Source: Salminus brasiliensis (taxonomy: Eukaryota; Chordata; Actinopteri; Characiformes; Bryconidae). Taken from it: 64,000 nt of DNA. Each line of letters begins with the position of its first letter. Within the stretch, counting starts at the first letter, position 1. Positions 20,196-63,699 of the stretch are shown one piece after another. Below the pieces are notes generated by a model that had not been told where the DNA came from, made no database searches, and was given only the letters and a program-made list of their open reading frames with translations. Position numbers and translations under genes: made by a program. The stretch spans positions 48,178,358 through 48,242,357 of the forward strand of contig NC_132881.1 in the NCBI RefSeq assembly GCF_030463535.1, read 5' to 3'.

Positions 20196-20818
20196 CTGAG
20201 AGAGAGAATGAGAGAGAGAGAACAGTTATTAATACAGAGAAATTGTAAGGAACACTCTTTTGCACTATATAGACAAAAGTATTGGGACACCTGCTCATTC
20301 AATGTTTCTTCTTAAATCAAGGGGATTAAAAAGAGTTGATCCTAGAGCTGGGCTACGTGGAAATTATGTAACAATATATTTACGCTCTCCAAATACTCTC
20401 CCATACCATGATTTTTACTCAAAATATACTTCTCTCCATTGAATTTAATAAGACCGTACACTCTTTGTGATGAAATGTGCACATAAAAGCATACTGTGTT
20501 CCTTGATAGCACAACTGATCACAATACGATAAAATTACTATACTGCCCAGCTCTAATTGATCCTGCCTTTGTTGGAGTAACTGAAGACTACTTTCTACTA
20601 GATTATGGAGGAGCATTGCTCCCAGACTCATCCCAAAAGTACTGGATGGAGCTCCACCACCATCATTCCAGAGAACACAGTTCTTCCACTGCTCCACAGC
20701 TCCTCAATGCTGGGGGGCTTTTTACCCCTCTATAGCCCATGCCTGGCATTATTAGGCAGCATGGAGCCAATAGAGTCGTCTGGTTTATCTGCTCCATAGA
20801 GTTCAGAGACTAGACTAG

Positions 20819-33002: not shown

Positions 33003-34692
33003 ACAGTTCTGTGCAAATATCCTGGCCTGTAATGAACTCTATATAACATTAGAATAAACCCAAATAAACATAAAGTCAGTGGTCAGTGAGAGTGTCTACC
33101 TGTAATTAACTCTATATAACATTAGAATAAACCCAAATAAACATAAAGTCAGTGGTCAGTGAGAGTGTCTACCTATAATTAACTCTATATAACATTAGAA
33201 TAAACCCAAATAAACATAAAGTCAGTGGTCAGTGAGAGTGTCTACCTGTAATTAACTCTATATAACATTAGAATAAACCCAAATAAACATAAAGTCAGTG
33301 GTCAGTGAGAGTGTCTACCTATAATTAACTCTATATAACATTAGAATAAACCCAAATAAACATAAAGTCAGTGGTCAGTGAGAGTGTCTACCTGTAATTA
33401 ACTCTATATAACATTAAAATAAACCCAAATAAACATAAAGTCAGTGGTCAGCAAGAGAGTCTACCTGTAATTAACTATATATAACATTAGAATAAACCCA
33501 AATAAACATAAAGTCAGTGGTCAGCAAGAGAGTCTACCTGTAATTAACTCTATATAACATTAGAATAAACCCAAATAAACATAAAGTCAGCGGTCAGCGA
33601 GTGTCTACCTGTAATTAACTCTATATAACATTAGATTAAACCCAAATAAACATAAAGTCAGTGGTCAGTGAGAGTGTCTACCTGTAATGAACTCTATATA
33701 ACATTAGAATAAACCCAAATAAACATGAAGTCAGTGGTCAGTGAGAGTGTCTACCTGTAATTAACTCTATATAACATTAGAATAAACCCAAATAAACATG
33801 AAGTCAGTGGTCAGTGAGAGTGTCTACCTGTAATTAACTCTATATAACATTAGATTAAACCCAAATAAACATAAAGTCAGTGGTCAGTGAGAGTGTCTAC
33901 CTGTAATGAACTCTATATAACATTAGAATGAACCCAAATAAACATAAAGTCAGTGGTCAGTGAGAGTGTCTACCTGTAATGAACTCTATATAACATTAGA
34001 ATAAACCCAAATAAACATAAAGTCAGTGGTCAGTTAGCGTGTCTACCTGTAATTAACTCTATATAACATTAGAATAAACCCAAATAAACATAAAGTCAGT
34101 GGTCAGTGAGAGTGTCTACCTGTAATTAACTCTATATAACATTAGAATAAACCCACATAAACATAAAGTCAGCGGTCAGTTAGCGTGTCTACCTGTAATT
34201 AACTCTATATAACATTAGAATAAACATAAACTCAGTGGTCAGTGAGAGTGTCAACCTGTATTTAACTCTATATAACATTAGAATAAACCAAAATAAACAT
34301 AAACTCAGTGGTCAGTGAGAGTGTCTACCTGTAATTAAGTCTATATAACATTAGTATAAACCCAAAAAAACATAAATACAGGTCTTCCTCCAGGCGAGCT
34401 CTGGTAATGGGTAACACACTCACTCACAACAGTGAAATAAACCCTTTCTGTCCAGATAAACAGCTGTGTGGGGGTACTGCATCATATCACTGGAAAATGA
34501 TATTTATAAGCTGTTTATCCAGAAAGTAAATGTTTATTTGCTCAGAAAAATATTAGAAATCTTTGTGGCAGCTGGAGGCATCGAGGTGTGTTTTATCTTA
34601 CTGTATCCTAATGAGTTTTTAGAATATACACTTATTACCCCCCATGGTTTCAGACAATCTGCTGAGGTGGCGAAGACGTTTGCACAGTACTG
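33003..34692. mobile_element. Tc1-like non-autonomous element carrying the 73-bp minisatellite (copy 2)
   Basis: The ends are CACAGTTCTGTGCAAA at 33002 and GTTTGCACAGTACTGCA near 34680, matching the ends of the 16601-17423 element. The interior is about 18 copies of the same 73-bp unit plus about 300 bp of right-hand sequence. Confidence 0.5.
33030..34375. repeat. 73-bp minisatellite, about 18 copies
   Basis: Same unit as 16650-17216, with CTCTATATAACATTAG and AATAAACATAAAGTCAG. Variation is mainly substitutional, with a few short deletions near 33595 and 34220. Confidence 0.93.
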
Positions 34693-38522: not shown

Positions 38523-39212
38523 CACTATATGTCCAAATGTTTGTAGACACCCCTTCTAATGAATGCATTCAGCTACTTTAAGTTGCACCAATAGAATGAA
38601 CCCAGACAACAGAGAACGGCTCCTCCCAGCCCCGCCCATCCTGTCCTGGTCTCAACGCAGAGGGCACCCCATTAGTATCTCTAAAACATCATGGTTCTTT
38701 AAAGAGTCAAATGACTCTAAATTAATCATTCACTATAATGATTCATTCATTCTGAATCAGTTACAGATGATTAGGCTGCTAAGTAGCACCCATGGCTGGC
38801 ACAGCTGTGCAAATGCACACGCACAGCTTGTCTAGCCCCTGTAGAGAAGAAGTACTGCCAATAGAATAGGACTCTCTGGAGCAGATACACTAGATGAACC
38901 TATCGACACCATGCTGCCCAATAATGGCAGGCGTGGGCTAGTAGAGGGGTATAAAGCCCCCCAGCGTTGAGCTGTGGAGCAGTGGGAGAACTGTGTTCTC
39001 TGGGATGATGGATGGTGGTGCTCTGTCCAGTACTTTTACGATGAGCGGAGGAGTTGGGAATGAGGTAGGATGGTGATTGTCCAAAATCAAAGCCTTTCCT
39101 GGACAGTAGAGGCAGTTACTCCAACAGAAGCAGGGTGAACTAGTTTTCATCCCCTTGACTTCAGAAGCAGCAGTGAATGAGCAGGTGTCCCAATACTTTT
39201 GTCTATACTGTG
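38523..39212 (+). mobile_element. Family A TIR element with internal insertion
   Basis: Starts CACTATATGTCCAAATG and ends AATACTTTTGTCTATACTGTG. About 200 bp of unrelated DNA (about 38590-38788) separates TTGCACC from GCACCCATGG, suggesting an insertion with a short GCACC duplication. Confidence 0.7.
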
Positions 39213-39719
39213 TAGCAGATATGTAGGAACAGGGTGGAAGGGGAGGTGGATCCCACTCCATATCCAAATGGGCTGTTGTATATGTTGTAGAAGAAGCAGG
39301 TGTGCAGGTGAGGAGATGGGAAGGTTTACATCAACTGAACGTCTTCACAGATCTCAGGCAGATCTCAGATTCCACAAACAGGGTTCGTCATGGAAACGTG
39401 GTTCTTCTTAGGGCTCAAAGAACCCTATGTAGCACCTTTATTAATTTGATTTAAGAGAGTATTCAATGCAAATTGTTCCACTGTTATTGTTAGAGCAGTG
39501 AAAGGCCCTGATCACACCTGGCATAAACATACGCCTCAGATGATCCGATCTCAAGGGGGCGCTGAACACAGAGCCAGTGACCACATGTGAAGGGATTTCC
39601 ACTGGAGGAAGAGCCGAGTCGTGTGCTCTGCACCCAAATCATGCATGAGCTGGAGACGAGATGCAGCTGCTATGGATGCTGACTGCTGCTGTGGAGGATA
39701 AAACACATGAACAGTCGGA
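39213..39719. other. Spacer between two family A copies
   Basis: Unique sequence, no gene seen. Confidence 0.4.
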
Positions 39720-40259
39720 TACTGTATGTCCAAATGTTTGTGGACACCCTTCAAATGAATGCATTCAGCTACTTTAGGTTGCACCCATTGCTGATACAAA
39801 ACACACACACACAGCTTGTATAGTCCCTGTAGAGAAAAAGTACTGCCAATAGAATAAGACTATTGGGAGCAGATAAACTAGATGAACCTATTGGCTCCAC
39901 GCTGCCTAATAATGCCAGGCGTGGGCTAGTAGAGGGGTGTAAACCCCCCCAACATTGAGCTGTGGAGCAGTGGAAGAACTGTCTTCTCTGGAATGATGGT
40001 GGTGGAGCTCCATCCAGTACTTTTAGAGTGGTGATCATCTTTGAACATCCTGACCTCACTAACGCTATTGTTAGTTCTGGTTGAATGCAATGAAATCCTC
40101 ACAGCAATGCTCCTCCTCCAAAGTCTAATAGAAAGTCTACTTCTCTGGACAGTAGAGACAGTTACTCCAACAAAAGCAGGAGAAACTCTTTTCAATATCC
40201 TTGATTTGAGAAGAAATAATGATTGAGCAGGTGTCCAAATACTTTTGTCCATATAGTGT
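39720..40259 (+). mobile_element. Family A TIR element, full length
   Basis: The left terminus is ACTGTATGTCCAAATGTTTG and the right ends ACTTTTGTCCATATAGTG. It retains nearly all family landmarks, making it one of the best copies to define a consensus. Confidence 0.78.
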
Positions 40260-41368
40260 ATCTTCATGGCTGTATGACTACAATACGCTCTTACCGCTGA
40301 ATGCTAAACACACTCTCCCAGACAGAACCCCTGAGATGTGTTGTGTAGCCATGGAAAAACGTTGCTCCAGCGTGGAAAAGCACTTTCGCCATGGCTAACA
40401 TAGACGTGCTCACAGCGCCATCTTGTGGTAGATCTAAGCAAGTGTCTATTTTTTTCTTCTTCTTAACTTGGATTCCGAACTCCAAACAGGTCTCGCCCTT
40501 CTTATGTGTGCTGTGTGTCCTATGGCGTAGTTCTAGGTGTACTGTAGGTGGTACCGCATTACTGTTGAGGGTGCATCGAGCTGCTTTAGCGTTCACACTT
40601 CTGATGTCATGTGGTCATCTGAGTGCCTGACCGCCTCCAAAGGTGGCTTGAGTGATTAGATCACAAAGCTTCTCCAAATGCTCCCTACCCCATTCACCAT
40701 TGATAATCCAATCAGCTAAGATGCATGCTAATGCCAGGTGTGACCAGGGAACCCCTTTTCAGTGCTCTGTAGAAGCCTTTATTGTGGTATCTGCAGCAAG
40801 CCTATTGGGCAAATGGTTCACTAACAGATGAAGCTGATTGGCTCTCGTTATTGAAAGGCCGGACTTTCCATAATATAGCCACCATAATGAGGCGTGATTC
40901 ATATTTTAGTCTCCTCCTTTTATAATGTCAGATGAGGAACCATGGTTACAGAAGGACAGCTTGAGGTGCTTTTCTGCAGTGAAATCAGATCCCAGGGGTG
41001 GGCACCGGGAACCAGAGTCCAGCACAGTTTGCGGAGTCCCCTGCTAAACAGAGCAACTCAACCTGGCAATTAACAGGTGAGTTGGATCAGGTGTGCTTGA
41101 GCAGGCGAAGCCTTTAGAGTTTAGAGTGAACCCAACCACAGTACAGACATATGCAAAAGTTTTGGCACCCCTGATCAAAATACGTGTTTTGTGATGTTGT
41201 GTATATATTCTGTACAGAGACACTTCTGCACATTTTAATACACAATTACTGGTTTTTTTTTCATTGAACATAATGAGATAATGGGAAAAAATAAAATAAT
41301 AATAATAATAATAAAAAAAAATTAAAATCATTAATATAAAGAAATAAAATAAATGGGAAAAAGATTAA
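40260..41368. other. Intergenic, unique sequence
   Basis: No gene recognised. A Tc1-terminus-like word (GCAAAAGTTTTGGCACCCCT) is near 41154. The last 90 bp are (AAT)-rich. Confidence 0.4.
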
Positions 41369-44194: not shown

Positions 44195-44396
44195 TCAGAC
44201 GCTGGTGATGGAGGCGAGGCAGTTGGGAGATTTCTGCAGTTTCTCAGCCTGTGTGGTGGGGGGCTCGGGGATGGTGCGGAAGGTGAAGGGTGGGCCGATG
44301 CTGGTGGTGCCCATGTGACCCGGACTCAGAGCGGGGTTCTGCCGCCGGTTACTCTCCACAATACTCGAGGTGTTGGACGCCAGGCTCTCCCGTGTG
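44195..44396 (-). CDS. stox2: stox2 terminal coding exon
   Basis: Encodes TRESLASNTSSIVESNRRQN, PALSPGH and the C-terminus LQKSPNCLASITSV, then TGA at 44197-44195. Very close to mammalian STOX2. The acceptor CGCCTCAG joins the split Arg codon of the large exon. Confidence 0.95.
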
Positions 44397-47300
44397 CTGA
44401 GGCGAGAGACAGAAAACAGATAGAGAGGGTGAGAGAGGGAAAAAATTATTAATATTATAAATGCAAATGCAAAAGTTTGGGTACCCCAAAAGATCTGAGC
44501 TCTCAGATAACTTTGATTCTTGATCAGCTTGTGATCAAGGGCTGTGGCTTGTTCACAGTCATCAATCGAGATTAAGCCATGCTCATAGGATGGCTAGAAC
44601 CCCTATTTGACCTCAAAAGGCCTTCAGGCCTCCAGTCCTCAGCGCCAAAAGGAAAGGAATATCTAATCAAGCCTTTTGGAAACAAGTTGGGCAGAAATGA
44701 TTGGGGTGGTGGTGGTGGGTGTAGTGCTGGTACGAGTGTGTATATATATATATTTTTACACACGTCAGGGTCACTGCCAGCTTGTGGGTCTCCCACCCAA
44801 AAATAGTCTCTGTGGTCAGAAATGGACCCCTGATGAAGGTTGGTGTGGCCCAACAGATAACACCCCTACCTGCCACTGAGTTACAACACCATGTGGGAGA
44901 CTGGGGTCCGGTTCCTGGTCTGGGTGACTATGCTGCGCTACACCAATAAGAGACCTTGGGCAAGACTCCTAACACTACATCAGCCCACCTCTGTAATATG
45001 AGTAACCCTGGAAGTCACTCTGGAGAAGAGCGTCAGATAAATGCCATAAGTGTAAATATAAATGAAGGGCTGGAGGATGGTTAACACAAAACTGTGCATC
45101 TACCAAACACCAGCAAGGTGGCGCTACAAGGACGTTTGGCGACGTGGCAGTAAGGAGATGATCAAATTCTGACAGCAGTAGTAGTTGTATTCTGTTGCTG
45201 GTGTAATAATGGACGACGTGGGGAGAGAGATGCATTTGGGAATGATGTCATAGCTAATTTGATGAGTCATCTGGGTAACAGTGGAAAATCGTGTGTGTGT
45301 GCGTGAGTACATGCGAGGAGGCATACATTGGCCTCTCATAAGCTCTCTGAGAGAATTAATTAACATACACAGCTGATCAAAGCCTAAATTAAGACTCAAC
45401 AACTGTGAGGTAACCCCCTAAAGCATGGGTGTGAGTGCACACTTCAGTTCATAACTACAGAACTGAATCATTCATAGCGTATAATAACTGTTCATAGTAG
45501 ATACTGAATATTTCATAGTTCCAAGTCATTTCGCAGGAGGTACTGAATAACTCTTAATTCATAGTAGACACTGAATCATTTATAGTATTTACTATAAAAC
45601 CCACAGTATATACTGAATAAATATAACATAGTGGAATGACTAAGCCATGATAGGTACTGAATAATTCACAATTCACAGAATTATTCAAAATAAACAGTGG
45701 AAACAGAATAAATCAGGGGATACTGAATGATTCACAGTAGGTACAAAATAATTTATAGTAGATACTGAACAATAGCAGGTATTGAACAATTCACAATTCA
45801 CAGAAGATACTGAATAATGTATTACTCAAAAGTAGATACTAAATTCTTAATAGATACTAAAAAGATACTACATATAATGAGAAATCTATAATAGATACCC
45901 AATACTTCATAGCAAATACTTCGAGCAGGTATATCATTTATAGTGGATCCTGAATAATTCAGAGTAGATACTAAAAAATATATAGTAAAAACAAAATATG
46001 AATAATTCATATTCAATTTAATTCATATTAATTCAATAAATCCATAGTTGATACTGAATAATTCATATTAATTTGTTGTTGCAGATACTGAGTAATTTAT
46101 CGTGAATATTAAATACTTCAAAGTAGATACTAAATGATCCACAGAGACTGAATAGATGAAAAGATACTGAATATACTGAGAAATCTATAGTATGTACTGA
46201 ATAATACACAGCAGATACTGAATCATTTTGTGTGGATACTGAATATATTACGGTACATACTAAATAATAGAGACCGAAAATATACTGAGTTGACTAAGAA
46301 ATCTGTAGTAAGTACTGAATAATTCATATTAATTCATAGTAGCAGATACTGAATAATTTATTGTGGATACTAAATACTTCATGGTACGTACAAAGTAATT
46401 AATATATATTGAAAATATACTAAGGAGATTAAGAAATCTCTAGCAAGTACTGAATAATTCATAGAAGATACTGAAAAACCCATAGTTGATACTGAATAAT
46501 TCATATTAATTTGTAGTAGCAGATACTGAATCATTTATTGTGGATACTGAACACTTCAAAGTAGATACTAAATGATCCATAGAGACTGACAAGATACTAA
46601 ATATACTGAGAAATCTATAGTAGGTACTGAATAATACATAGTAGATACTGAATTACAAGCAGATACTGAATCATTTATTGTGGATACTGAATATTTCATG
46701 GTACATACTAAATAATGAATAGAGACTGAAAATATACTGAGGAGACTAAGAAATCTCTAGTAAGTACTGAAAAATCCATAGTTGATCCTAAATAATTTAT
46801 ACTAATTCATAGTAGCAGATACTGAATAATTTATTGTGGATACTGAATACTTCAAAGTAGATACTAAATGAACCATAGAGACTGAAAAGATACTGAATAT
46901 ACTGCGAAATCTATAATAGGTACTGAATAATTCATAGTAGATAGATTAATAGAGACTGAAAAGATACTGAATATACTGCGAAATCTATAATAGGTACTGA
47001 ATAATTCATAGTAGATAGATTAATAGAGACTGAAAAGATACTGAATATACTGAGAAATCTATAATAGGTACTGAATGTACTGAAAGTACTGATGCTGAAC
47101 AAATTACAGTAGATATTGAATAATTCATAGCAAATACTAGATACATAATAATTGATAGTGGATCCTGAACAAGTTATAGTATATATTGAACAATCAAACC
47201 AAGTGGGTGTGACTTGAACCAGAAAGCAGTGTGAGGTTCTGGAAGTAATCAATAAACTTGTCAGTACATACATTTCTACAAGCATGCTTATTGGTTCAGT

Positions 47301-47864: not shown

Positions 47865-50800
47865 CTCAGGACACCCAATCACAGGCTGTCTATGCCAGTT
47901 CATGACCTTGTCTATGGTAAGAGGAGAATCCATACTACACACTGCAGCATGTGGACCGATGGGCCCTCCAGGCTTTTTAAGCTACAGTTAAAGGGATAGT
48001 TTAGCAAAAATAATGACCCCCCCCCTCCCCCACATTTCCCCACCACCTCACTGCAGCAACCTGGCATCATCTAGACAGCGCCATCCATAGACATGATCCT
48101 CAGCTGCTGCAGATTAACCTAGCAATTTTCCGAAAGCTACCTTAGATAGCTCTAAAGCCAACTCTCCATTCCACCTTAAATAGGGCCGCAGGAACTGCTG
48201 CGTTATTTAAGGTGGAACGGAAAGAACCACGCTCCTTTCTTTGGTTCTAAACCAGCTCTGAACGGCACTGTCTGAACCGATTAGGAGGCTAGTGCTAATG
48301 CTAATGCTAACACACTGAGTGATCAGACTGCAGAGCTGAGGGAGGGCTGAATGGTCAGGGAGGTCGGTCAGACTGGACTGTAAGATATTAAACCAGTGGT
48401 TTAAAAAGTTGCTCCTAACAAAGTAGATCAGATTAGAATTTAGTCTAAGATTAGATTAGATTTTAGAAACTGCTGGATCCTACCAGCGTGGATTAGCACA
48501 TCTTACCCAAGTTGTGAGGTTGTATTATTTACAGAAACACAAAGATCGGATTGCCCAGTGGTCAGCATTAAGAGACTCGGATCGGACACGCCTTGATTGG
48601 GACACGCCTATTATTTGGGCCAGTGTGTGAGCTTACCGTGGGGAATTAAAGCCGCTGTCTACAGTCACGCTGCTGCTGTCCATGCTGTCCAGCCGTGCCG
48701 AGTGTGCGGACTTCTGGCTGCTGGTGTTCTCGTTCTCCTTAGGGCTCAGCAGAGTCAGGTTGGTCTCGAATTTCCTCTGTAGATCACGCTCCTTCTCTCG
48801 TTCCAGCAACCACTGCATGGTGCCGCCCCCAACCCCGCCACCAACCCCGCCACCACCCTCTCCACCCCCAGCTCGTCCCTTTCCTTCCGCCGGCGCTGCC
48901 TCCTTGCGGGAAGAATCTTCCACCTCCTCCTCGTCGTCATCGTCCGACACGTTGTAGTAGTCAAACGTGGCTTCCGAGGCAGAGGGGGCACCCTGCTCCG
49001 AACCTGTGGGGGCCGGGGCTGAGGCGGGTGACGGGGCAGAGTTAGGCGGCGGTGGTTGGGGCTCGAGGGTGTCAAGCACCTCCGACGATTTCATGTGAGG
49101 GGTCTTTCGCAACGTGCCCGATTTTGAGTAGCCACTGTCCACATAACTCATAGTCAAAACATTGTGTGGTGGCTTGAACAAAGTGTCCTTACTGAAAATC
49201 TCTTTCCGCTTATCCACCACCAATCCACTGCCACCAGTGCCCACACTGCCCCCTCCCCCACCCCCTGGGTCGGCGTTGTGTTGATGCTGTATCAAACGTC
49301 CATTGGACATGGGCTCTGGCGTCTGGCTGGGTGTGGGTTTACCCGAGCCGTTGTGGCCCTTAGTGGAGGTGTCCTCTTTGTAGTCCATAGGGTGCGGGGA
49401 GGTGAGGTGCGGCGTCTGCCGGTCAGCCGGTGATCCCTTACGGATCCCGTCTGATGGCGTTAAAGTGTCGTGATCGGATTTGCCCAGCGGCAACGGGGCG
49501 GTTAAGATTGTTTCGTTCGACGTATTGCACTGGAAGTAGTCGTCCGCAAGTGGCTTGGGCGACAGGGCCTTCAAATCGCTGTAGGCCGGCAAACTGTCCC
49601 TGCTCTTGTTCCGCTCCAGAGGGGTGTCCAGGCTCATCTTGCCCATATCAGGCACAGACATCTCAGAGTTGAACTTAGCAGCGGAGAACATGATGCGCGA
49701 GTAGTGCGATGCTTTCTGCGAGGAGGCTCGGAGCGTCCCGTCATCGGTATAGTATCGACTCCGATGGTCCGGACTGCGGTCGTAGTCCTCTGGAGTGCCT
49801 AGAGTTGAGCTTCCGCCTCCCAGTGGGCCCTTGGAGTTGTCCATGGATCTCGACCTCTCCTTGGCCTTGTCTGGCCGCTCAGTGCGAGACTTGCGGTCCT
49901 GCGTGTGGCTGTGGCTCCGGTGCACCCTGGAATGCGAGGTACCACGTGAAGGCTCTGGGAAGGGCATTTCCGTCCGTCTCTTTGCAAGCTCCCCCGACAC
50001 GTCCCATTCCGGTGTAACAGGGAAATATGACTCTGCGATATTGGGGTTGCTGTGGACAAGGTAAGCAGCACCACTCCTGCGCTCCACTGTGTACATTCCC
50101 TCCCTAGGAGAGCGCACCAGAGAGTGACTGAAGAAGCGGTAGTCCCTCTCCAGGCCCACCGCAGCAGCCAGGTCCAGGTTAGAACCCTCGGACGGGTCTC
50201 CACGAGAGGTTTGGCGGGTCTTGCTGTGGGATCGTGATTTGCCATGCGGGACGCGGCGGTGACCCCGGCTCCGGCGGCTGCGGGCACTGCTGTGCTGCGC
50301 AGACGAGCTTGCCTTGCAACGCTGAGCACGTTCCTCCTCCAGCCGCTTCATCACGGCCGTGTGCCGCGCCACGTTCTCCACCGTCAGGTCTGGGTTGATC
50401 CGCCGGATGATCTCCATCTCCACCTCGCGGGGGATAGCCGTGGAAGAGGGTGTGTCCTCGTCCCGAAGAGGCCACTCTTCTGGCGGAAACTGGGCGGAGA
50501 AGGTGGCCAACTGCTTCGTCTTGTCTTTCCTGAAGCTGAGTCGGAAAAGCTTCAGCCCGAACTTCTTGGATTGCCTCTCGCTGCTGCCCCCGGCGCTCCC
50601 CTCTTTCTTCTTGGTCAGAGTGTCTGTCTTGTAAGAGAAGGAAGGGTTGCTCCTGTTCTTGTCTGGATCGGGTGGGTGTTGTGTGGTGGGTGGAGGGGGT
50701 GGGGGCTGAGGGTATGAGGGGGGATCTCCTTTGGGCTCCTTGGGGGACTTCCTCTGAAGAGTAGTGTGATTGCTTGGCACCTCGTCACGGTACGAGTTGT

Positions 50801-50943
50801 ACGAGTCGCAGTGGTTCTTGTGGTTTAGCCTTTCCCGCACGCAACCGGATGTAGAGGGGGTGATGGTGCCAGACTGGGGTGACGTACACTGCTGCTGCTG
50901 CTGCTGCTGCTGTGTCTGTTGCTGCTGCTGCTGTTGCTGCTGT

Positions 50944-50975
<32 letters not shown>

Positions 50976-51911
50976 CGACTGCTGCTGGCGGTCCGGGTGC
51001 CGATCGTCCAGGTGGTACCATTTGCTGTTGGTGCGGATGAGGGAGGGGGTGATGAAGTAGGTCTGGGGCGTGACAATGCAGTAGCCCTCAGGCGTGGGGT
51101 AGATCTTCCGCTCCCGAACCAGCATGTTGAGCGTGTGCCGCAGGATCTCCGGACTCGGTGTGGGTACACCTGAGGGGAGGAAGGTGGAGAAGAACGATCA
51201 GGTCACACAAATCCTCCATGATCACGTTCCAGAACGTCTACTTACTTCTACATAACCTCTAGAAAAGAGGCGACCGACAGTGTCCGTGATTCATTTTGCT
51301 AAATTAGAAATTGACCCATCATTTACTGCTAATTATGTATTTTGCTTCTGAGTAATAACTGCGTTTCTAAAACACTGAGCAGAAAAGGAAGAATAAAAAT
51401 GAGAAAAAAAAGAAGGATTAGAGGGTTCATGCTGAGGTTAGCGTTCTTCAGCGTAGGTTTGGTGTTACCAAAGGCATTCGTGTTGCCAGAAGCAGGATTA
51501 ACCAAGAGTAGGTGTAATTAAACAAACAACCACCGAAGGCCAATCAAAAGCAGCGCTTCTCTTGCTGATATCCACAACCACCAGGACATCCACCAATCAG
51601 AGTGGACGAAGCATTACCTCATCTTTCATCATTGGGTCTGTAAGCCCCTCAATCTGATAATGGCTCTAAAACTGGCACTGCTAGTCTGACTAAATTGGTC
51701 CTCCCTCATAAGATTAGCTCACACGAGTGACAGTGAGCGCCGCCGAAGCGCCTGCGAAGCCCCCTTCTCAGCGGTTCAGCTGCTGCCCGTGGTATGATAA
51801 GTTATAAGGGTTTAAATGGACCAGAGCTCTGAGCTAAAACTGCAGACAACCCTGTTACCAGGTCATCGCCCAGGATGACGACTGTCTGAGAGAGACTGTC
51901 CGGGGTGGGGG

Positions 51912-52440: not shown

Positions 52441-55400
52441 CAGTATTTATATAGCACCTTTCATACAATGCAGCTCATAGATAACATACAAGGAAAATTT
52501 ATTTCAGAAAATAAATCATTTTAAAAAATGGTAAACATTAAAACCATTGAAATAATTCAACTGAATAAATAACATGGAATAAGGTAAAAATAGAAGCCAC
52601 AATGAAACATAATACATAATAAAAATGCAAAAAATAAAATGAATATAACACTATGGAGAAGCTGGGGTAGATGGATAAGTTTAAAGCTGCTTTTTTAAAA
52701 TGCTGACTGGATGCTTGTCTCATGTCTTCTGGGAGGGAATTCCAAAGTTTAAGGGTGTCCAAACTAAATACTGCCTCACCTCTTCTTTTATGTTTTGTTC
52801 GTGGAACAGAGAGCCAGCCTGACCAGCCTCATTAAAGAACACCTCTCCACCTTCTCAAAATATCCTAACCAGTAAAATCCCCTCAAATGTAGAATTAATA
52901 TCTAATATTTCTCATTTTGAGATATTTGATATTGTAGTAATATGAGATTCACTTTTTTCTTTTTTTCTTATTTTTTTATTTCCTACTTTTTTATTTACAG
53001 ATATAGAAACTTTACTAGTTTCAAACTTTACATTTCAAAGTGCAACAGTGTATGTATAGTGTAAGGTAACATGTATTTTTAATTTCATATATATTCTGTA
53101 TTTTTTGTTTTGTGTATGTTCTATATTTATATAATATATATAATTTCATATGTATAGTTTGTATTTTTTATTGTGTATATATTCTGCCTTTTCATTTAAT
53201 ATATAGTTTGTAGTCATTTATTGGTATACATTCTGTATTTTATATTTTCTATATATTCTAAATTTTGTATATATATTATATTAATTTCATGTGTATATTT
53301 TGTCATTTGTATTTTGTAACTTTAGATATATTCTGTATTTATTTTGTATATATTCAGATTTTTTTATTTTATATATATTCTTGATTTTCATTTGATATAT
53401 ATTTGATATTTCTAATTTTATGTATATATTTTGGGAATTTGTATTTTGTATATATTCTGCATTTTTTATTTTACATATATTCTGCATTTTTGATGTTATA
53501 TATATTCTGTATAATATTTTGTACTATATTTACTTTACTTACTATATTTTGTATATCGTAATTTGTATATATTTTGTATATATTGTGTATTTTATATATA
53601 TTTCAAATATATTTTATGTTTTTTTAAATTTTGTATATAATTTTTTTCAGATATATATTCTGTATTTATTGTGTATTTGCTACTGTGAGGGACAACGCAC
53701 TTAAAGTCTCTCACTTAATGCGAAGTGACAATAAACCTGATTTAGATTTAATTTGTTTTGATGTTCTTACAGCAACGTAAACATTAGGAATAAATTTAGG
53801 AACGGTTCACTTGCTAAGAAATCATTTTTGCCAGTGACTCTCTGGCAGGTCCGTGGATGCGGTCACTGCCGTCCCTGTACTCGTTAGCGCCGTGGATGAG
53901 TCTTTAACTAGCGTTCAAAAAGTCTGCACAGCAACCAAACAAGGCCTGAAGTCTGCAGACACGTGACTCCCACAGACTAGACCGGGCGCCACAGGGTACA
54001 CCGTGTCCTCTCCTCACTCTGGTCCTTATGTTACCTCAATCAGCTTTACTACACACACATACACACACATATGCTCGCACACCGTTGAAACAAGCATGGA
54101 TAAAGCAGAAGATAAGCTGTAACTAGTCTGGGTTAAGTGTTGCTTGCCATTACATCATACCCCGGCAGTTGCCATAACAACATGACGCAACCATGGAGAC
54201 TCGGCTCTTTTTCTCTGCTTTTTTGTCGCCTCCCTCCTCCTTTGTGAGGAGGAATCACGGCGCTCCTCGCAGTCCAGTCTGCACAATGTGTGCTCTGATT
54301 GGTCCGTTCCCGTGAGCCGAGCTGTGCATTCTGCATGCTTATTGGCTGAGTCTCTGCCAGGGTGGTGAATCCTTTTCCACACATGGTCGTAACGCTACAG
54401 GCCAGCCATGCTGATCTTACTGTCCAGAGGGCAAAGGGACTAATACTCACTCTAATAAACTAATAGACTTACTACACCACTCCGACACGGACATCCCAGC
54501 GGCCTAGGATGGTTAACACGGGGGGACGGGGGGCTCCTGAAGGGCTCTGAGGTTAGAAATGCACAAAAACACACAGAGTACATCTCCAAAAGTTTGTGGA
54601 CACCCCTTCTAATGAATGCATTCTTAGCTACTTTAGGTTGCACCCATTGCTGACACACACACAGCTCGCCAATAGAATAGGACTCTCTGAACCTATCGGC
54701 ACCATGCTGCTTAATAATGCCAGGCGTGGGCTAGAGGGGTATAAAGCCCCCCAGCATTAAGAAGCTGTGGAGCAGTGGAAGAGCTGTGTTCTCTAGAATG
54801 ATGGATGGTGGTGCTCCATCCAACTTCTGGAACGAATTGGGGATGAGGTGATCATTCAACATCTTGAGTCCTCACTAATGCTCTTCTTGCTGAATGCAAT
54901 CAAATCCTCACAGCAATTCTCCTCCAAAACCTAGCTGAAAGCCTTCTTCTCTGGACAGTAGAGACAGTTACTCCAACAAAAGCAGGATCAGCTCTTTTTA
55001 ATAACCTTTATTTCAGAAGAAACAACGCACAAGCAGGCGTCCCAATACTTTTGTCCATAAATATTTATTGGTAACAATCTAAAACTGCTTATCCTTTAAC
55101 CTCACGAACCCAGTGGAGCTTTGCAGGAACCAGGAGTTCAACATCAAGACATTGACCAAACGGACTCCAGGCTTTCCTTCAGCTGAGAAGGAGCTTGATG
55201 ATGAAGATGAAGATGAGGAAGCCACTGACTGTGAATGAAGCAGTACTTCACACAACCAGCAGATGGCAACATATAAAATTTACCACGTCTGCAAAGCAGG
55301 ATTTAGCAGTTAGCCTGCTAATCTAGGCCTAAAACCGAGCCCGTCCATACATTAGAACAACGGCCTAGAACCATATAGACGCTTAAATGGTTCTCTGACT

Positions 55401-58400
55401 GGTTACTTTGATCTTTTTGTACAAAGCAAAGCACCAAAAAGGGTTCCACCATTGTTACTAATCAAAGAACCTGTTTGTAGAACCCTTTTTGCTGGGAGTG
55501 GGACATTCCTATTGGACGATCCTCGACTCTATTAAGGGAAAACACTGAATTTCTCTTGATTTGACAACATACTTTTAAAAATGCCGCTTGTCCTGCTTAG
55601 CTCAGTGCTATTTTCATACCCATCCATATACAGTCATGGCCATAAGTATCTGGACAGAGGCTAAAAGAGAAACTTTTTAATGACCTTTTATGAAACTGTC
55701 CATTATTTTAGTGATCTAGAAGATCCCTGTTGCTCATAATCTCATTTAATAATGAGTTTTTACAGTTTATTAAATTAGTATTGTGATAAAACACCTTAAT
55801 CCAAACCATGATATTAAAAGATGACCTGTAGTAAAGGTAAGCAAGATAAAAATTTAAAGGACGAGACCAAGGTAGAACAACCTTCTGGGATGCCAAGCAA
55901 ATGTCCTCACCAGCTCTGACCAGCGAGACCCACTATGGACAGCTCTGGGTCATTTGGGGTCATTTGGGGTCAATTGGGGTAGGGGTTTAGGTATAGTCTT
56001 AGCAAAAAGGGTTCGAAGAGTAACAACAGTGGAACCCTTTTCAGAGCCATCTTACACATCATCATAGCCAGTCAAAGCTCATGCCATGGTTCTGACCCAT
56101 TGTGTTGACTGAGGAACCTATAGAACGAGGAACCGCGGCTGTCTTCACATTTTCCTTATAAAGCCTCTTCCCAAACATTTTTAGAACTTCAGCAGCTGGA
56201 GAAAAAAGACAGTCATTACAATAACCACAGCATTAAAATAAGAAATAAAATTAGATACAATATATGGACAAAAGTATTGGGACGCCTGCTCATTCACTCA
56301 TTCAGTTTTTTGTCACGGAAATCAAGGGTATTAAAAGAGCTGATCCTGCTTCTGTTGGAGTAACTATCTCTACGGTCCAGAGAAGAAGACTTTCTACTAG
56401 ATTTTGGAGGAGGCTTGCTGTGAGACTTTGATTGCACTCAGCGACAAGAGTGTTAGAGAGGTCAGGATCGATCATCCCCAACTCATCCCAAAAGTACTGG
56501 ATGGAGCTCCACCACCACCATCATTCCAGAGAACACAGTTCTTCCACTGCTCCACAGCTCCTCAATGCTGGGGGGCTTTATACCCCTCTAGCCACGGTGC
56601 CAATAGGTTCATGATGTTCATCTGCTCCAAAGAGTAATATATGATCATTTAATTCCTTTTTAATAATTCAGAAGGTCAAAAGGTCAAATAATCACTTCAG
56701 TAAAGTAAAGATTTAACGGTTGAGGCTTTAAAGGGTTAAAGTCGTGTGGTCAGAGAACGGGGAAGCTCTGACTAAAGGTTATGGCCTGTTTAACAGCTAT
56801 CGAGAAAATTATATGCGTGTATTTAGTCAGCAAAGCCCCCCTCCTGCCCTCCCCGGTTCTAATGGGATATTGACAGAGCCGTGGTGAAGCTCCTATGATG
56901 CAGTCATCACACACTGTTTCTCCACCTCAGCAAAATCCAGAGCTCACAGCGCCTCACACTGCACAAGGTTACACAGGAGAGACATTAACGTCTACCTGCA
57001 AGCACTGACCACTTCTGATCAATATTTAATTGTAGAAAACGCCCTTTCATCACCTTCAGACGCCTCCCCCCGACTTACACCAGCAGCCGGAGTAAGCCTA
57101 TAGAGACGTATAGTCGGACATCAATCATGCAGCAAACAGAATTATGGGTAATGCTCTTCTATAAAAACTAACAACTTTCTATGAAGCGACGACTGAATAT
57201 CGCCCATAACATTAAAACCACTGGCGGATTAACACTGAACAACACTGATGATCTGGGTCCAGTGGGTCCTGTCAGGCAGCGGGCGAACAGTCAGTTCTTG
57301 AAGATGATGAAGGTGATGAAGGTGATGAGACAGGAAAAATGGACAAGTGTAAGAATCTGAGACACTTCGACAAGAAGAACCAAACTGTGATGTTCTAGAT
57401 CTTGACTGGGTCAGAACATCTCCAGAACATCAGCAAGCAGGTCTTGCAGAGGTCAGTACCTACCAAAAGTGCTCCAAGGAAGGACAACTGGCAAACCTGT
57501 GGACACCCAAGGTTCACTGATGCTCTTGGAGGTCCCACCGCTCAACTTACAGGACTTACAGGATCTGCTGCTAATGTCTCAAGGTGTCCAGATACCACAG
57601 GACACCTTCAGAGGTCTCACGGCGTCCATGCCTTTACAGTCCATACTCATAAGTATTGGTGCAGACGTCTAAGCCTTGGCCATCCGCAGCTAGGAGTCTC
57701 GAAGAGCGTGACTGGCCTTGCTCTCTATGGGTGGGCAGGATGATGTAGCTGACGGATCTGCTGATTGGCTCCTTATATGCGTCACCTTTGTGCCACAAGA
57801 TCTGGGGACTGTATCTTTTACTGTATCCTCGTCCAACACCGCTACCGCTGCATTAGCACGGCCCAGCTAACAGGCTCGTCCAACACCGCTACCGCTGGCA
57901 TTAGCACGACCCAGCTAACAGGCTCGTCCAACACCGCTACCTCTGCATTAGCACGGCCCAGCTAACAGGCTCGTCCAACACCGCTACCTCTGCATTAGCA
58001 CGGCCCAGCTAACAGGCTCGTCCAACACCGCTACCTCTGCATTAGCACGGCCCCAGCTAACAGGCTGTCCAACACCGCTACCTCTGCATTAGCACGACCC
58101 AGCTAACAGGCTCGTCCAACACCGCTACCTCTGCATTAGCACGGCCCAGCTAACAGGCTTGTCCAACACCGCTACCTCTGCATTAGCACGGCCCAGCTAA
58201 CAGGCTCCTCCAACACCGCTACCGCTGCATTAGCACGGCCCAGCTAACAGGCTCGTCCAACACCGCTACCGCTGCATTAGCACGGCCCAGCTAACAGGCT
58301 CCGTCCAACACCGCTACCTCTGCATTAGCACGGCCCAGCTAACAGGCTCCTCCAACACCGCTACCTCTGCATTAGCACGACCCCAGCTAACAGGCTCGTC

Positions 58401-61400
58401 CAACACCGCTACCTCTGCATTAGCACGCCCAGCTAACAGGCTCGTCCAACACCGCTACCGCTGGCAAGCTAGTCAACGCGGAGCGGCCCAGCTAACAGGC
58501 TCGTCCAACACCGCTACCGCTGCATTAGCACGGCCCAGCTAACAGGCTCCTCCAACACCGCTACCTCTGCATTAGCACGGCCCAGCTAACAGGCTCGTCC
58601 AACACCGCTACCGCTGCATTAGCACGGCCCAGCTAACAGGCTCGTCCAACACCGCTACCGCTGCATTAGCACGGCCCAGCTAACAGGCTCCTCCAACACC
58701 GCTACCTCTGCATTAGCACGGGCCCAGCTAACAGGCTCGTCCAACACCGCTACCTCTGCATTAGCACGACCCAGCTAACAGCTCGTCCAACACCGCTACT
58801 ACTGCATTAGCACGGCCCAGCTAACAGGCTCGTCCAACACCGCTACCTCTGCATTAGCACGGCCCAGCTAACAGGCTCGTCCAACACCGCTACCTCTGCA
58901 TTAGCACGACCCAGCTAACAGGCTCCTCCAACACCGCTACCGCTGCATTAGCACGACCCAGCTAACAGGCTCGTCCAACACCGCTACCTCTGCATTAGCA
59001 CGACCCAAGCTAACAGGCTCCTCCAACACCGCTACCGCTGCATTAGCACGACCCAGCTAACAGGCTCGTCCAACACCGCTACCTCTGCATTAGCACGACC
59101 CAGCTAACAGGGCTCCTCCAACACCGCTACCGCTGCATTAGCACGACCCCAGCTAACAGGCTCGTCCAACACCGCTACCTCTGCCATTAGCACGACCCAG
59201 CTAACAGGCTCGTCCAACACCGCTACCGCTGCATTAGCACGGCCCAGCTAACAGGCTCGTCCAACACCGCTACCTCTGCATTAGCACGGCCCAGCTAACA
59301 GGCTCGTCCAACACCGCTACCGCTGCATTAGCACGGCCCAGCTAACAGGCTCGTCCAACACCGCTACCGCTGCATTAGCACCGTCCCAGCTAACAGGCTC
59401 GTCCAACACCGCTACCTCTGCATTAGCTCGACCCAGCTAACAGGCTCGTCCAACACCGCTACCGCTGCATTAGCACGGCCCAGCTAACAGGCTCCTCCAA
59501 CACCGCTACCGCTGCATTAGCACGACCCAGCTAACAGGCTCGTCCAACACCGCTACCTCTGCATTATAGCACGCACCCAGCTAACAGGCTCGTCCAACAC
59601 CGCTACCGCTGCATTAGCACGACCCAGCTAACAGGCTCGTCCAACACCGCTACCTCTGCATTAGCACGGCCAGCTAACAGGCTCGTCCAACACCGCTACC
59701 TCTGCATTAGCACGACCCAGCTAACAGGCTCGTCCAACACCGCTACCGCTGCATTAGCACGGCCCAGCTAACAGGCTCCTCCAACACCGCTACTGCTGCA
59801 TTAGCACGGCCCAGCTAACAGGCTCGTCCAACACCGCTACCTCTGCATTAGCACGACCCCAGCTAACAGGCTCGTCCAACACCGCTACCTCTGCATTAGC
59901 ACGACCCAGCTAACAGGCTCCTCCAACACCGCTACCTCTGCATTAGCACGGGCCCAGCTAACAGGCTCGTCCAACACCGCTACCCTCTGTATTAGCACGA
60001 CCCAGCTAACAGGCTCGTCAACACCGCTACCGCTGCATTAGCACGACCCAGCTAACAGGCTCGTCCAACACCGCTACCTCTGCATTAGCACGACCCAGCT
60101 AACAGGCTCCTCCAACACCGCTACCTCTGCATTAGCACGGGCCCCAGCTAACAGGCTCGTCCAACACCGCTACCTCTGTATTAGCACGACCCAGCTAACA
60201 GGCTCGTCCAACACCGCTACCGCTGCATTAGCACGACCCAGCTAACAGGCTCCTCCAACACCGCTACCTCTGCATTAGCACGAACCCAGCTAACAGGCTC
60301 GTCCAACACCGCTACCGCTGCATTAGCACGGCCCAGCTAACAGGCTCGTCCAACACCACTACCTCTGCATTAGGCACGGCCCAGCTAACAGGCTCGTCCC
60401 AACACCGCTACCTCTGCATTAGCACGGCCCAGCTAACAGGCTCGTCCAACACCGCTACTCTGCATTAGCACGGCCCAGCTAACAGGCTCGTTCCAACACC
60501 ACTACCTCTGCATTAGCACGGCCCAGCTAACAGGCTCGTCCAACACCGCTACCTCTGCATTAGCACGGCCCAGCTAACAGGCTCGTCCAAACACGCTACC
60601 TCTGCATTAGCACGGCCCAGCTAACAGCTCGTCCAACACCGCTACCTCTGCATTAGCACGACCCAGCTAACAGGCTCGTCCAACACCGCTACCTCTGCAT
60701 TAGCACGGCCAGCTAACAGGCTCCTCCAACACCGCTACCTCTGCATTAGCACGACCCAGCTAACAGGCTCCTCCAACACCGCTACCTCTGCATTAGCACG
60801 GCCCAGCTAACAGGCTCCTCCAACACCGCTACCTCTGCATTAGCACGGCCCAGCTAACAGGCTCCTCCAACACTGCTACCTCTGCATTAGCACGGCCCAG
60901 CTAACAGGCTCGTCCAACACCGCTACCTCTGCATTAGCACGGCCCAGCTAACAGGCTCGTCCAACACCGCTACCTCTGCATTAGCACGGCCCCAGCTAAC
61001 AGGCTCGTCCAACACCGCTACCTCTGCATTAGCACGGCCCAGCTAACAGGCTCCTCCAACACCGCTACCTCTGCATTAGGATAAGTATGAGCATCCCACC
61101 GCCTCCCACTTTCCATCCAGACTGGGTCTAAAAACACAGTGATGTCATTTCCCAGCCTGCCAATTCTGCCCACTCCGCACGTCCCACAGTGCTACATGAT
61201 GGACAGCACCAGGATGACATCATCCAGCTACAAAACCCTCGTCAGCAAAATATTGATTATGGATTTGTGCTGGGGTTGTTATTCCTGAAAAGCCGCAGCA
61301 GCAGCAGCAGCAGCAGCGTCGGCCAGCGCAGTGAATCGCTGTAGCACCAGCTTCGGTCGGGCCGAGGAGCGTTACGGCCCCTCTGAACACGTCTGGAGGG

Positions 61401-61559: not shown

Positions 61560-61600
<41 letters not shown>

Positions 61601-61758
61601 ACCTGGGAAGCAGGTGGTGAGGTGCCTCCATCAGGGGCGTCCTGTGTGACGGCTTGCGGGCGGAGTTCATGGCCGAAATCGCCAAACACAGAATCTCTCC
61701 CAGCGGAATAAACTGAGACTGGCTGATTGGGACGACATGCTGATGGGAGACACATCAC
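44195..61758 (-). CDS. stox2: Storkhead-box protein 2, last three coding exons (5' end outside window)
   Basis: STOX2 has a storkhead winged-helix domain, DNA-binding-like and related to forkhead folds. The family is linked to differentiation and trophoblast biology, but its targets are unclear. Minus-strand exons are 61758-61603, 51169-48637 and 44396-44195, all GT-AG with matching phases, giving roughly 960 residues; mammalian STOX2 is about 926. The winged helix spans the first exon and the start of the second (PTPSPEILRHTLNML, TNSKWYHLD). Conserved blocks follow: KKFGLKLFRLSF, PPEEWPLRDEDTP, EMEIIRRINPDLTVENV, TPEWDVSGELAKRRTEMPF, FDYYNVSDDDD and MQWLLEREKERDLQRKFE. The C-terminus ends ASITSV. 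Oddities are a 33-codon Gln-rich insert and frame-disturbing differences in the 61.6-kb exon. The upstream first exon is not in view. Teleosts may have two stox2 copies. Confidence 0.95.
44397..45439 (-). other. stox2 intron, proximal part with a SINE
   Basis: Apart from the SINE at 44843-45061 and a Tc1-terminus-like word near 44469, nothing recognisable. Confidence 0.4.
44843..45061 (+). mobile_element. V-SINE-like element with tRNA-derived head
   Basis: A-box-like TGGCCCAACAG at 44846-44856, B-box-like GGTTCCTGGTC at 44910-44920, and a tail reading AAGTCACTCTGGAGAAGAGC then ATAAATGCCATAAGTG. The tail matches the conserved 3' end of vertebrate V-SINEs and the fragment at 25817-25867. Confidence 0.65.
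45440..47190. repeat. Degenerate AT-rich tandem repeat with higher-order structure
   Basis: Words such as GATACTGAATAATTCATAG and AGAAATCTATAGTAGGTACT recur every ~20-25 bp, organised in longer blocks of roughly 200-220 bp (compare 46180-46400 with 46610-46830). Three successive ~75-bp near-identical copies lie at about 46900-47060. It sits in the stox2 intron. Confidence 0.8.
47191..48636 (-). other. stox2 intron, distal part
   Basis: Mostly unique. A (CA)n array is at about 47828-47862. No exon is seen before the large stox2 exon. Confidence 0.45.
48637..51169 (-). CDS. stox2: stox2 large coding exon
   Basis: A 2,533-bp open exon coding ~844 residues. It starts with the second half of the winged-helix domain (GVPTPSPEILRHTLNML, TYFITPSLIRTNSKWYHLD), followed directly by the Gln-rich insert at 50987-50889. 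Conserved basic and serine-rich blocks come next, then the acidic FDYYNVSDDDDEEE, a fish-specific Gly-rich run at about 48870-48825 and the MQWLLEREKERDLQRKFE helix. It ends with SVTVDSGFNSP. Acceptor CCCCTCAG at 51171-51170, donor GTAAGC at 48636. No frameshift over its whole length, in contrast to the 61.6-kb exon. Confidence 0.96.
50889..50987 (-). repeat. stox2: CAG/CAA repeat coding a polyglutamine tract in STOX2
   Basis: 33 codons: three Gln, one Ser, 20 Gln, one Thr, eight Gln, using mixed CAG and CAA codons. It sits just after the winged-helix domain, where mammalian STOX2 has no such tract. Confidence 0.93.
51170..51963 (-). other. stox2 intron, unique sequence and (TG)n
   Basis: (TG)n at about 51916-51942. 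No exon or other feature is supported. Confidence 0.45.
51964..52238 (-). mobile_element. Family A TIR element, internally deleted
   Basis: Both termini are present (AAAAGTATTGGGACACCTG left, TGTCCACAAACATTTGGAC right), but the middle is shortened to about 275 bp, lacking the CCCAGCATTGAG region. Confidence 0.65.
52239..54574 (-). other. stox2 intron, LINE-tail-like and AT-rich low-complexity sequence
   Basis: (CAA)n(TAA)n at about 52383-52441 is followed by ATTTATATAGCACCTTTCAT, a common fish LINE or derived-repeat landmark. About 52640-52800 looks like decayed repeat coding DNA. From about 53040 to 53690 the DNA is a degenerate TATATTCTGTATTTT-type repeat. It ends with a GTGACAATAAACCTGATTT tail near 53726. 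Confidence 0.45.
54575..55060 (+). mobile_element. Family A TIR element, near full length
   Basis: Left end ACATCTCCAAAAGTTTGTGG, right end CGTCCCAATACTTTTGTCC. Family landmarks are retained throughout. Confidence 0.72.
55061..56257 (-). other. stox2 intron with a Tc1-terminus-like fragment
   Basis: ACAGTCATGGCCATAAGTAT near 55632 resembles a Tc1-type terminus. The rest is unique sequence without an exon. Confidence 0.4.
56258..56632 (-). mobile_element. Family A TIR element, truncated
   Basis: Starts CAATATATGGACAAAAGTAT. It continues to the TGCCAATAGGTTCAT landmark and then stops before the opposite terminus. Confidence 0.7.
56633..57202 (-). other. stox2 intron, unique sequence
   Basis: No recognisable feature. 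Confidence 0.45.
57203..57620 (+). mobile_element. Tc1-like derivative, left end present
   Basis: Starts GCCCATAACATTAAAACC, like the TIR at 18924, and shares ACTGGGTCAGAACATCTCC and CTACCAAAAGTGCTCCAAGG with that element. The right TIR is absent. A SINE-body fragment (GACTGGCCTTGCTCTC) follows at about 57682-57745. Confidence 0.6.
57832..61077. repeat. 47-bp minisatellite in stox2 intron, about 69 copies
   Basis: The unit includes GCCCAGCTAACAGGCTCGTC, CAACACCGCTACC and TCTGCATTAGCACG. True-looking variants are paired substitutions (GGCCC/GACCC, CTCGTCC/CTCCTCC, CCTCTGC/CCGCTGC). On top of these many copies carry lone one-base gains or losses, mostly in C or G runs. Frames read across it are not genes. 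Confidence 0.94.
61078..61562 (-). other. stox2 intron between minisatellite and exon
   Basis: Unique sequence with a short GCA trinucleotide run near 61294-61316 and a TA run near 61538-61553. No exon other than 61603-61758. Confidence 0.4.
61563..61597. repeat. (TG)n array; (CA)n at the stox2 5' splice site on the minus strand
   Basis: On the minus strand the donor GTAAACACACAC runs directly into about 17 CA units, so the repeat begins within the 5' splice site consensus. Confidence 0.92.
61603..61758 (-). CDS. stox2: stox2 coding exon 2 with four apparent one-base indels
   Basis: Encodes the first half of the storkhead winged-helix region. Segments in three frames match STOX2: DVSPISMS, then ISQSQFIPLGEILCLAISAM plus NSARK, then VTQDA, then LMEHLTTCFPG-like codons. 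To join them one base is missing near 61729-61731 and one near 61651, while one is extra in the G run at 61634-61637 and one at 61625-61626. The net change is zero, and the length (156 bp) and phases fit the next exon (GGT codon across the junction). Acceptor CTGTAG and donor GTAAAC are intact. Sequence error is more likely than gene loss because the 2.5-kb next exon is fully open. Confidence 0.85.
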
Positions 61759-61765
61759 CTACAGA

Positions 61766-61766
61766 C

Positions 61767-61800
<34 letters not shown>

Positions 61801-61832
61801 CAGAGAGAGACACAGAGAGCAGAGAAGAGAGA

Positions 61833-61865
<33 letters not shown>

Positions 61866-61899
61866 CAGAGAGAGAAGAGAGACAGAGAGAGAGAGAGAG

Positions 61900-61947
<48 letters not shown>

Positions 61948-62000
61948 CAGAGAGAGAGAGAGACACAGAGAGAGAGAGAGAGACACAGAGAGAGAGAGAG

Positions 62001-62066
<66 letters not shown>

Positions 62067-62097
62067 AGAGCGAGAGAGAGAGAGAGAGAGAGAGAGG
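61766..62097. repeat. ~330-bp (GA)n array; (CT)n upstream of the stox2 acceptor
   Basis: Long GA array with CA interruptions (ACACAGAG). On the minus strand it is a CT tract ending eight bases before the stox2 exon 2 acceptor. Open frames giving Arg/Glu or Leu/Ser repeats are artefacts of the repeat. Confidence 0.93.
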
Positions 62098-62615
62098 TTT
62101 ATTTCAGCTGTTATGAGACAGAGAAATGATGTAATAGACTGTGTTGATTTTATTATCTGAACTGAGCTGCTCTGATCAATTAAGTCCCCGTGTGGATTCA
62201 CATTAGGGGTGTCTGAAAATATCGATACATCAAAGTATTGCGATATCATGTTCTGTAATACTGTATCGATTCTCAAAAAACCCTGTATTGATTCTTACTG
62301 AATAGTTTACATGTAAAGATTGGTGTCAGACAGTGGTTCATTTAGTGTTGTGTTTAAACCCTGACCACTAGGGGCAGCACTGTACTATGTCTTCAGATCC
62401 CACTGTTCTGATCAATCACTTTACCTCATTAAAAAATCACAGTCTATCCTTCTTGCTTAACCTTTCTGCACTCTGCTCTGAGCTCAGCACTCGGCCCCTG
62501 ACCCCGCTCTGTAACGTTACGTGGTCTGACAGACACTCGGTGGACGCTGAGCTGCTCTCTGTGAGCTGTTTCCTCCTAAACTCTTCCACTGTTCAATAAT
62601 AACACCACTCACAGC
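62098..62615. other. stox2 intron with hAT-end-like fragment
   Basis: TAGGGGTGTCTGAAAATATC near 62202 followed by GATACATC and TATCGATTC words resembles a fish hAT terminus. The rest is unique. Confidence 0.4.
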
Positions 62616-62871
62616 TGATGGAGGAAGATCTAGGAGGAAGGTCTAAATTTCACCAGCTGACTTGTTGTTGTTGGTGCAGCGGTGTCTCCTATTACATACA
62701 GAACCACGCTGGAGTTCAGTGAGCTCTTCAGAACCTCCGTTCTTTCACTGATGAGTGGAAGAAAGGCAGACTGCAGGACTAGAGGCTGGATTTTATACAC
62801 CTGTAGTGGCAACAGACCTGAATTCAATGATTAAGAGGTGTGTCCTCCAATACTTTTGTCAAATAATAATG
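62616..62871. repeat. Dispersed ~260-bp repeat, family B (copy 2)
   Basis: Close match to 31916-32171 over its whole length, same orientation, with few substitutions. Confidence 0.7.
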
Positions 62872-63416: not shown

Positions 63417-63699
63417 GGGCACACTGGGTGGTCCCGTGGACTAAGGCGCTGTCACTGTGATCAGAGGATCGCTGGTTCCTATCCCGATCACGCTGCTAGC
63501 CATCGGCAGGGTGAGTAGATGGAGCTATCACCCCCCCCCCCCCCCCCCATTGGTTGGTTGGTTGCCTAGTGACGTCGCATCAGCAGCAGTTAAAAAAACA
63601 GGCGTTTCAGAGGGGGCGTGTCTGGTCTCGCCCTCACTAGTGTTGGGGGGCGTTGCGTGTGATGACGGGGGAGGGGGGGTAACTGGCGATCTAAATTAG
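63417..63699 (+). mobile_element. tRNA-derived SINE, second copy, internally deleted
   Basis: Same family as 14893-15300. A-box-like TGGTCCCGTGG at 63429-63439, a damaged B-box GGTTCCTATCC at 63474-63484, a poly(C) run at 63531-63548 in place of part of the body, then GACGTCGCATCAGCAGCAG and the tail ACTGGCGATCTAAATTAG. Confidence 0.7.

Follow-up and report, generated by a model that had tools for sequence, protein, structure and literature searches.

The window analysed here, a stretch of 64,000 nucleotides from Salminus brasiliensis, looks like it contains exons 2 to 4 of a normal stox2 gene. The label stox2 comes from the initial annotation, and it is this label, together with the human sequence, that leads us to take the gene to be STOX2 rather than STOX1. 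One study counts STOX2 as a member of a pair of winged-helix paralogues in mammals and reports orthologues throughout the vertebrates (PMC7765495). The following exons were located in the window:

61603..61758, minus strand: stox2 exon 2, encoding the first half of the Storkhead winged helix, its frame broken in the assembly (frame translations, Pfam)
48637..51169, minus strand: stox2 exon 3, 2533 bases, open (frame reading, Pfam)
44195..44396, minus strand: last exon of stox2, open, with 202 coding bases counting the stop (frame reading)

Exon 2 comprises 156 bases (61758-61603, read on the minus strand) and is flanked by CTGTCTGTAG on its acceptor side and GTAAACACAC on its donor side. Both splice sites are intact, as had been claimed from the start, with TAG immediately before the exon and GTAAAC immediately after it. 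The Storkhead peptide itself, in contrast to this and to the known family, is distributed over five consecutive pieces in three frames, with offsets of 2-1-0-1-2 counted from the start of the exon:

61756-61733, offset 2: piece 1, DVSPISMS
61730-61650, offset 1: piece 2, PISQSQFIPLGEILCLAISAMNSARKP
61647-61636, offset 0: piece 3, TQDA
61634-61626, offset 1: piece 4, LME
61624-61604, offset 2: piece 5, HLTTCFP, joined in phase to exon 3 by the codon split as G and GT

Together with three split-codon bases at the ends of the exon, these pieces leave only six of the 156 bases unaccounted for. The initial annotation had held that the exon can be read as Storkhead only through four frame changes, and this is what we find (at 61732-61731, 61649-61648, 61635 and 61625, reading in the direction of the gene). 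The frame changes and the stop in the native phase are as follows:

61731..61732, minus strand: frame change 1, with either one base missing or two in excess (peptide pieces, Pfam; preceding phase partly from human sequence)
61648..61649, minus strand: frame change 2 (peptide pieces, Pfam frame-path scores)
61635, minus strand: frame change 3, within a C run (peptide pieces, Pfam frame-path scores)
61625, minus strand: frame change 4, beside G (peptide pieces, Pfam frame-path scores)
61667..61669, minus strand: TGA stop in the acceptor (native) phase of exon 2, with a second TGA at 61633-61631

At frame change 1 two bases are left over, corresponding either to one missing base plus one codon or to two extra bases, and Pfam expresses only a slight preference (91.8 bits as two extra versus 89.7 as one missing). 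The same two-base remainder separates the pieces at frame change 2, which we take as one missing base only because the human sequence has a residue at that position. The phase of piece 1 likewise leans mainly on the human sequence, since the PF10264 profile starts only at the M of this piece; additional support comes from offset 1, which meets TGA as its first codon in exon 2. If piece 1 does give the entry phase, entry into and exit from exon 2 appear to be phase-symmetric.

The changes had been described as four one-base differences with a net change of zero. This is established modulo 3 only, as frame change 1 may consist of two extra bases. Were four one-base indels to arise at random, they would cancel modulo 3 with a probability of 0.375 (0.236 if insertions are favoured as in the neighbouring array, see below), so that cancellation, being common by chance, is no argument for or against error. 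Nor does it have functional meaning, because a reading in phase with the acceptor runs into TGA at 61669-61667 and again at 61633-61631. On these two grounds we rejected a compensated functional frameshift.

Profile scores across the frame changes

The Pfam profile PF10264 (Stork_head, length 79) has a curated cut-off of 27 bits. Two stretches each exceed this cut-off. In exon 2 it is the 39-residue offset-1 stretch that begins with SQF, with 27.1 bits (E 4.9e-6, profile positions 7-37); in exon 3 it is the frame by itself, with 31.2 bits (E 2.6e-7, positions 45-79). Stitched paths were scored by joining the exon 2 pieces to exon 3 and writing X at the breaks. The path with all four frame changes reaches 89.1 bits (E 2.2e-25) and covers positions 3-79 of 79, whereas single frames of exon 2 joined to exon 3 reach 79.8 (offset 1), 43.1 and 35.5 bits, with 35.4 bits for exon 3 only in that comparison. 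A path with frame changes 1-3 only scores 86.1 bits and one with changes 1-2 only 73.5 bits; since the latter falls below the unbroken offset-1 frame, changes 2 and 3 bring a gain only as a pair. When all 27 frame combinations are considered for the last three pieces, keeping head and break points fixed, the STOX path ranks first (89.1 bits), followed by a runner-up at 86.1 bits and descending to 66.7 bits. The weakest piece is LME, whose margin is just 3.0 bits over an alternative in which a stop is written as X.

Judged from these scores, the match of the exon 2 frame pieces to Storkhead is more than chance. In common with STOX2, the pieces and exon 3 fill positions 3-79 of the PF10264 profile, and exons 3 and 4 follow in phase to the stop; the window departs from the known family in that exon 2 is broken at four places as assembled. 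No single continuous frame carries the domain over exons 2-3 of the assembly, three frames being required and two TGAs lying in the native phase. We attribute this discontinuity to consensus error.

The remainder of the gene

Exons 3 and 4 form one open frame of 911 codons from the split codon to the stop, with no stop or shift in 2735 coding bases, in agreement with their initial description as clean. Disabling changes of the kind that would mark a pseudogene are, in other words, absent from the coding sequence of both exons. This is despite the presence of 35 runs of at least four C or G, 17 of them of at least five, compared with one run of four in exon 2, so that run length alone does not explain the exon 2 breaks. 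Breaks number 4 in 156 bases of exon 2 versus 0 in 2735 bases of exons 3-4 (Fisher p 8e-6), a p-value that is descriptive only because exon 2 was selected for its oddness.

A long glutamine repeat (CAG/CAA, 50889-50987) lies in frame inside exon 3. The exon 3 protein has no relative in viral contigs (600 pattern matches) or genome contigs (591), as expected for an animal gene, and a sequence search of the PDB returned nothing meaningful (best E 0.043). Among the literature matches listed, no title or abstract start concerns this exon 2.

A minisatellite in intron 2 as internal control

Intron 2 contains a tandem array whose copies can serve as each other's reference:

57828..61079, no strand assigned: 47-base minisatellite, intron 2, 69 copies, used as a marker of local consensus error (array alignment)

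Across the 3252 bases of this array we count 33 one-base indels, 24 insertions and 9 deletions. This count excludes the indels of one odd copy, unit 14 (58441-58499, with 12 inserted bases in the alignment), which is nevertheless kept in the array length; the partial last copy, which is free of indels, was omitted from the analyses of indel types and matched blocks, and an extra C beside a G/A variant was recoded for typing. Counting every one-base event instead gives 37. The indels fall into 24 types, 20 of which occur once. The 74 substitutions, on the other hand, fall into 11 types, only 5 of which occur once, and 63 of the 74 represent just three variants found in 16-26 copies each. One-of-a-kind types thus comprise 20 indels versus 5 substitutions, an excess of indels over substitutions that is our mark of an error zone. 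Because inherited changes spread with the copies and read errors do not, single indels alongside recurring substitutions point to error. By the same token, we disfavour the view that true minisatellite mutation alone produced the indels, most indel types being single while substitutions recur.

In or creating a homopolymer are 25 of the 33 indels, a figure that comes with no chance level. Some indels do recur (an extra C six times at one run, an extra G three times at another, and one indel common to two sister blocks), and a few of these may be real or systematic. No blocks of at least six units share identical substitutions. With blocks of at least four units there are two such pairs, in which 1 indel is shared versus 9 private, some of them double-counted as one pair overlaps.

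Copy 14 of the array also harbours an unrelated stretch (58463-58486) and is 12 bases longer than expected. Words of 10-12 bases from this stretch occur nowhere else in the window, and the stretch could be either an error or a real insertion.

Indels and substitutions elsewhere in the window

How unusual is the array? A 19-base array at 1826-3166, similarly GC-rich (0.59 versus 0.54 for the 47-base array) and with many C runs, shows 0 one-base indels in 1341 bases (33/3252 versus 0/1341, p 2e-5). Six comparison arrays, this one among them, together contain 2 one-base indels in 4838 bases (p 2e-11), keeping in mind that the six were our own choice out of 86 tandem-repeat rows. Four degenerate arrays, initially omitted, give a different result:

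3174-3317: 4 one-base indels in 144 bases, 11 substitutions
53149-53597: 23 one-base indels in 449 bases, 71 substitutions
46521-46713: 7 one-base indels in 193 bases, 35 substitutions
46914-47034: 3 one-base indels in 121 bases, 11 substitutions

These arrays are AT-rich and old, and although their density of one-base indels is above that of the 47-base array, their substitutions are more numerous still. The rate of one-base indels in the self-referencing sequence beside exon 2 is therefore raised relative to the selected arrays but lower than in the four degenerate ones, and the mere occurrence of one-base indels does not distinguish the 47-base array. What sets it apart is only the excess of one-of-a-kind indels over one-of-a-kind substitutions.

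A cleaner yardstick than any of these arrays is provided by an interspersed family, whose copies lie at the following positions:

699-942
9463-9645
15974-16315
20260-20810
38816-39216
39801-40263
54688-55062
56253-56596

Over 2837 bases compared, private changes in these eight copies amount to 84 substitutions and 2 one-base indels, the reverse of the balance in the 47-base array; in the copy at 56253-56596, the private changes are 5 substitutions and 1 one-base deletion. Taken together, the degenerate arrays and the interspersed family weaken the plain comparison of rates and strengthen the comparison of indels to substitutions, leaving the odds given to consensus error as they were.

Unit choice matters for such counts. 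Read with a 29-base unit, the stretch 11318-11984 has 23 one-base indels; read with a 58-base unit, it has none, so the 23 are probably an effect of the chosen unit. Two 73-base arrays contain longer indel blocks, and a 73-base satellite unit is common to 16653-17183 and 33026-34376, 16 kb apart. The hexamer array at 3964-4718 (GTATCA and variants) has several open frames and, by alignment, a one-base deletion at 4010. In the 19-base array at 1826-3166, which has ~70 copies, three plus-strand frames are open over long parts, with ORFs of up to 452 codons; these are a mechanical effect of the unit and no gene. The sole match in the window at the Rfam gathering score is a UnaL2 LINE 3' element (RF00436, 25805-25858, 58.4 bits).

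Simple repeats around exon 2 and the extent of the proposed zone

On both sides, the short exon 2 is framed by simple repeats:

61562..61598, no strand assigned: TG tract, lying four bases past the exon 2 end
61763..62096, no strand assigned: AG tract of 334 bases (CT when read on the coding strand), preceding the exon 2 start at a distance of four bases

The polypyrimidine tract of exon 2 belongs to the long CT microsatellite (61759-62096), and on the other side the sequence passes from the donor into an AC repeat.

We judged the extent of the zone from the array and exon 2, which lie on either side of a spacer of ~520 bases. At the array's indel rate, exon 2 should contain 1.6 breaks, and at least four would arise with a probability of 0.076; the observed break rate is ~2.5 times that of the array. 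Three repeat pairs have one side past exon 2. Those at 62613-62866 (13 mismatches, 3 gaps) and 63427-63509 (7 mismatches, 0 gaps) look ordinary, while the one at 63553-63675 looks indel-rich but diverged (7 mismatches and 9 gap openings, the majority of these openings concentrated in a single diverged stretch and one lying in a G run).

Explaining the broken exon

There are a number of scenarios under which the breaks would be real. Imagine a stox2 copy, possibly a fish duplicate or one allele, in the first stages of decay after the recent loss of its winged helix. Genes of this kind are often retained in duplicate in fish, which would permit the loss of one copy, and exon 2 does present two TGA stops in its native phase. 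However, a decaying gene would hardly be expected to remain open over the 911 codons of exons 3-4 or to score well between the breaks of exon 2. Moreover, pseudogene substitutions usually outnumber indels, and four indels without visible amino-acid decay would reverse this order of damage. Decay also leaves the indel-rich array unexplained, and we regard it as improbable. Alternatively, real breaks might be tolerated if exon 2 were skipped or replaced, yielding a STOX2 without the first half of its winged helix and with its C-terminal part intact. The exon lends itself to skipping in that its 156 bases would leave the frame unchanged, having the same phase at both ends if piece 1 sets the entry phase, and its splice sites lie against simple repeats that could vary; exons 3-4 also stay clean. 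Yet the two splice sites appear intact, and between the breaks the peptide has stayed conserved, a state that would hardly be expected to last under relaxed constraint; the indels of the array are again left unexplained. We consider this scenario highly improbable, and it is just as doubtful that the animal, by skipping exon 2, makes STOX2 without its DNA-binding half, a C-terminal protein that would no longer bind DNA.

A programmed frameshift, RNA editing or some other decoding device might restore the frame, in line with the frame changes summing to zero modulo 3. Such a sum would, however, arise by chance with a probability of 0.24-0.38, and a device would have to act on four changes within 156 bases, in both directions and at ordinary short C/G runs. 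We know of no such device in vertebrate winged-helix genes and give this idea practically no credence.

The breaks are instead very probably uncorrected consensus errors, the real exon 2 being intact and in frame. This had been proposed at the outset as the best explanation, and it gains support from the clean exons 3-4 and from the excess of single indels in the minisatellite next door. It is favoured because the pieces rebuild the Storkhead domain and because the balance of substitutions to indels is normal elsewhere in the window. Under this explanation, the sequence from ~57.9 to 61.73 kb (minisatellite, spacer and exon 2) would be a part of low assembly accuracy, with ~10 one-base indels per kb, and the exon 2 breaks and the indels of the array would share one cause. 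We suggest that this cause might be low or single-source read coverage combined with failed polishing between the 3.25-kb array, the TG tract and the 334-base GA tract.

In a study on long-read bacterial assemblies, residual errors are mostly in homopolymer lengths and persist in repeats, where short reads are hard to place (PMC8812927). The changes seen here resemble such errors: they involve single bases, mostly lie within homopolymers or create them, and occur inside repeats or next to them. That account, however, concerns bacterial genomes, and insertions exceed deletions in our array (24 to 9). For the human T2T assembly, HiFi coverage is reported to have been absent over GA-rich sequence, an earlier ONT-based assembly supplying the sequence for those gaps (PMC9186530); in another human assembly, GA-rich repeats are reported for 10 of 15 ONT-filled gaps (PMC9668749). 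The 334-base GA tract four bases from the start of exon 2 recalls the sequence context of these dropouts. Finally, vertebrate assemblies are reported to require correction from transcripts where stops occur prematurely or indel errors shift the frame (PMC8081667).

The approach is reusable: tandem arrays act as their own reference, and the balance of single indels and substitutions hints at local consensus quality even where reads are not to hand. For the organism itself, the frame breaks are most likely an ordinary artefact and no real feature. As a practical warning, a scan for gene loss or selection could call stox2 broken in this species or drop its winged-helix exon.
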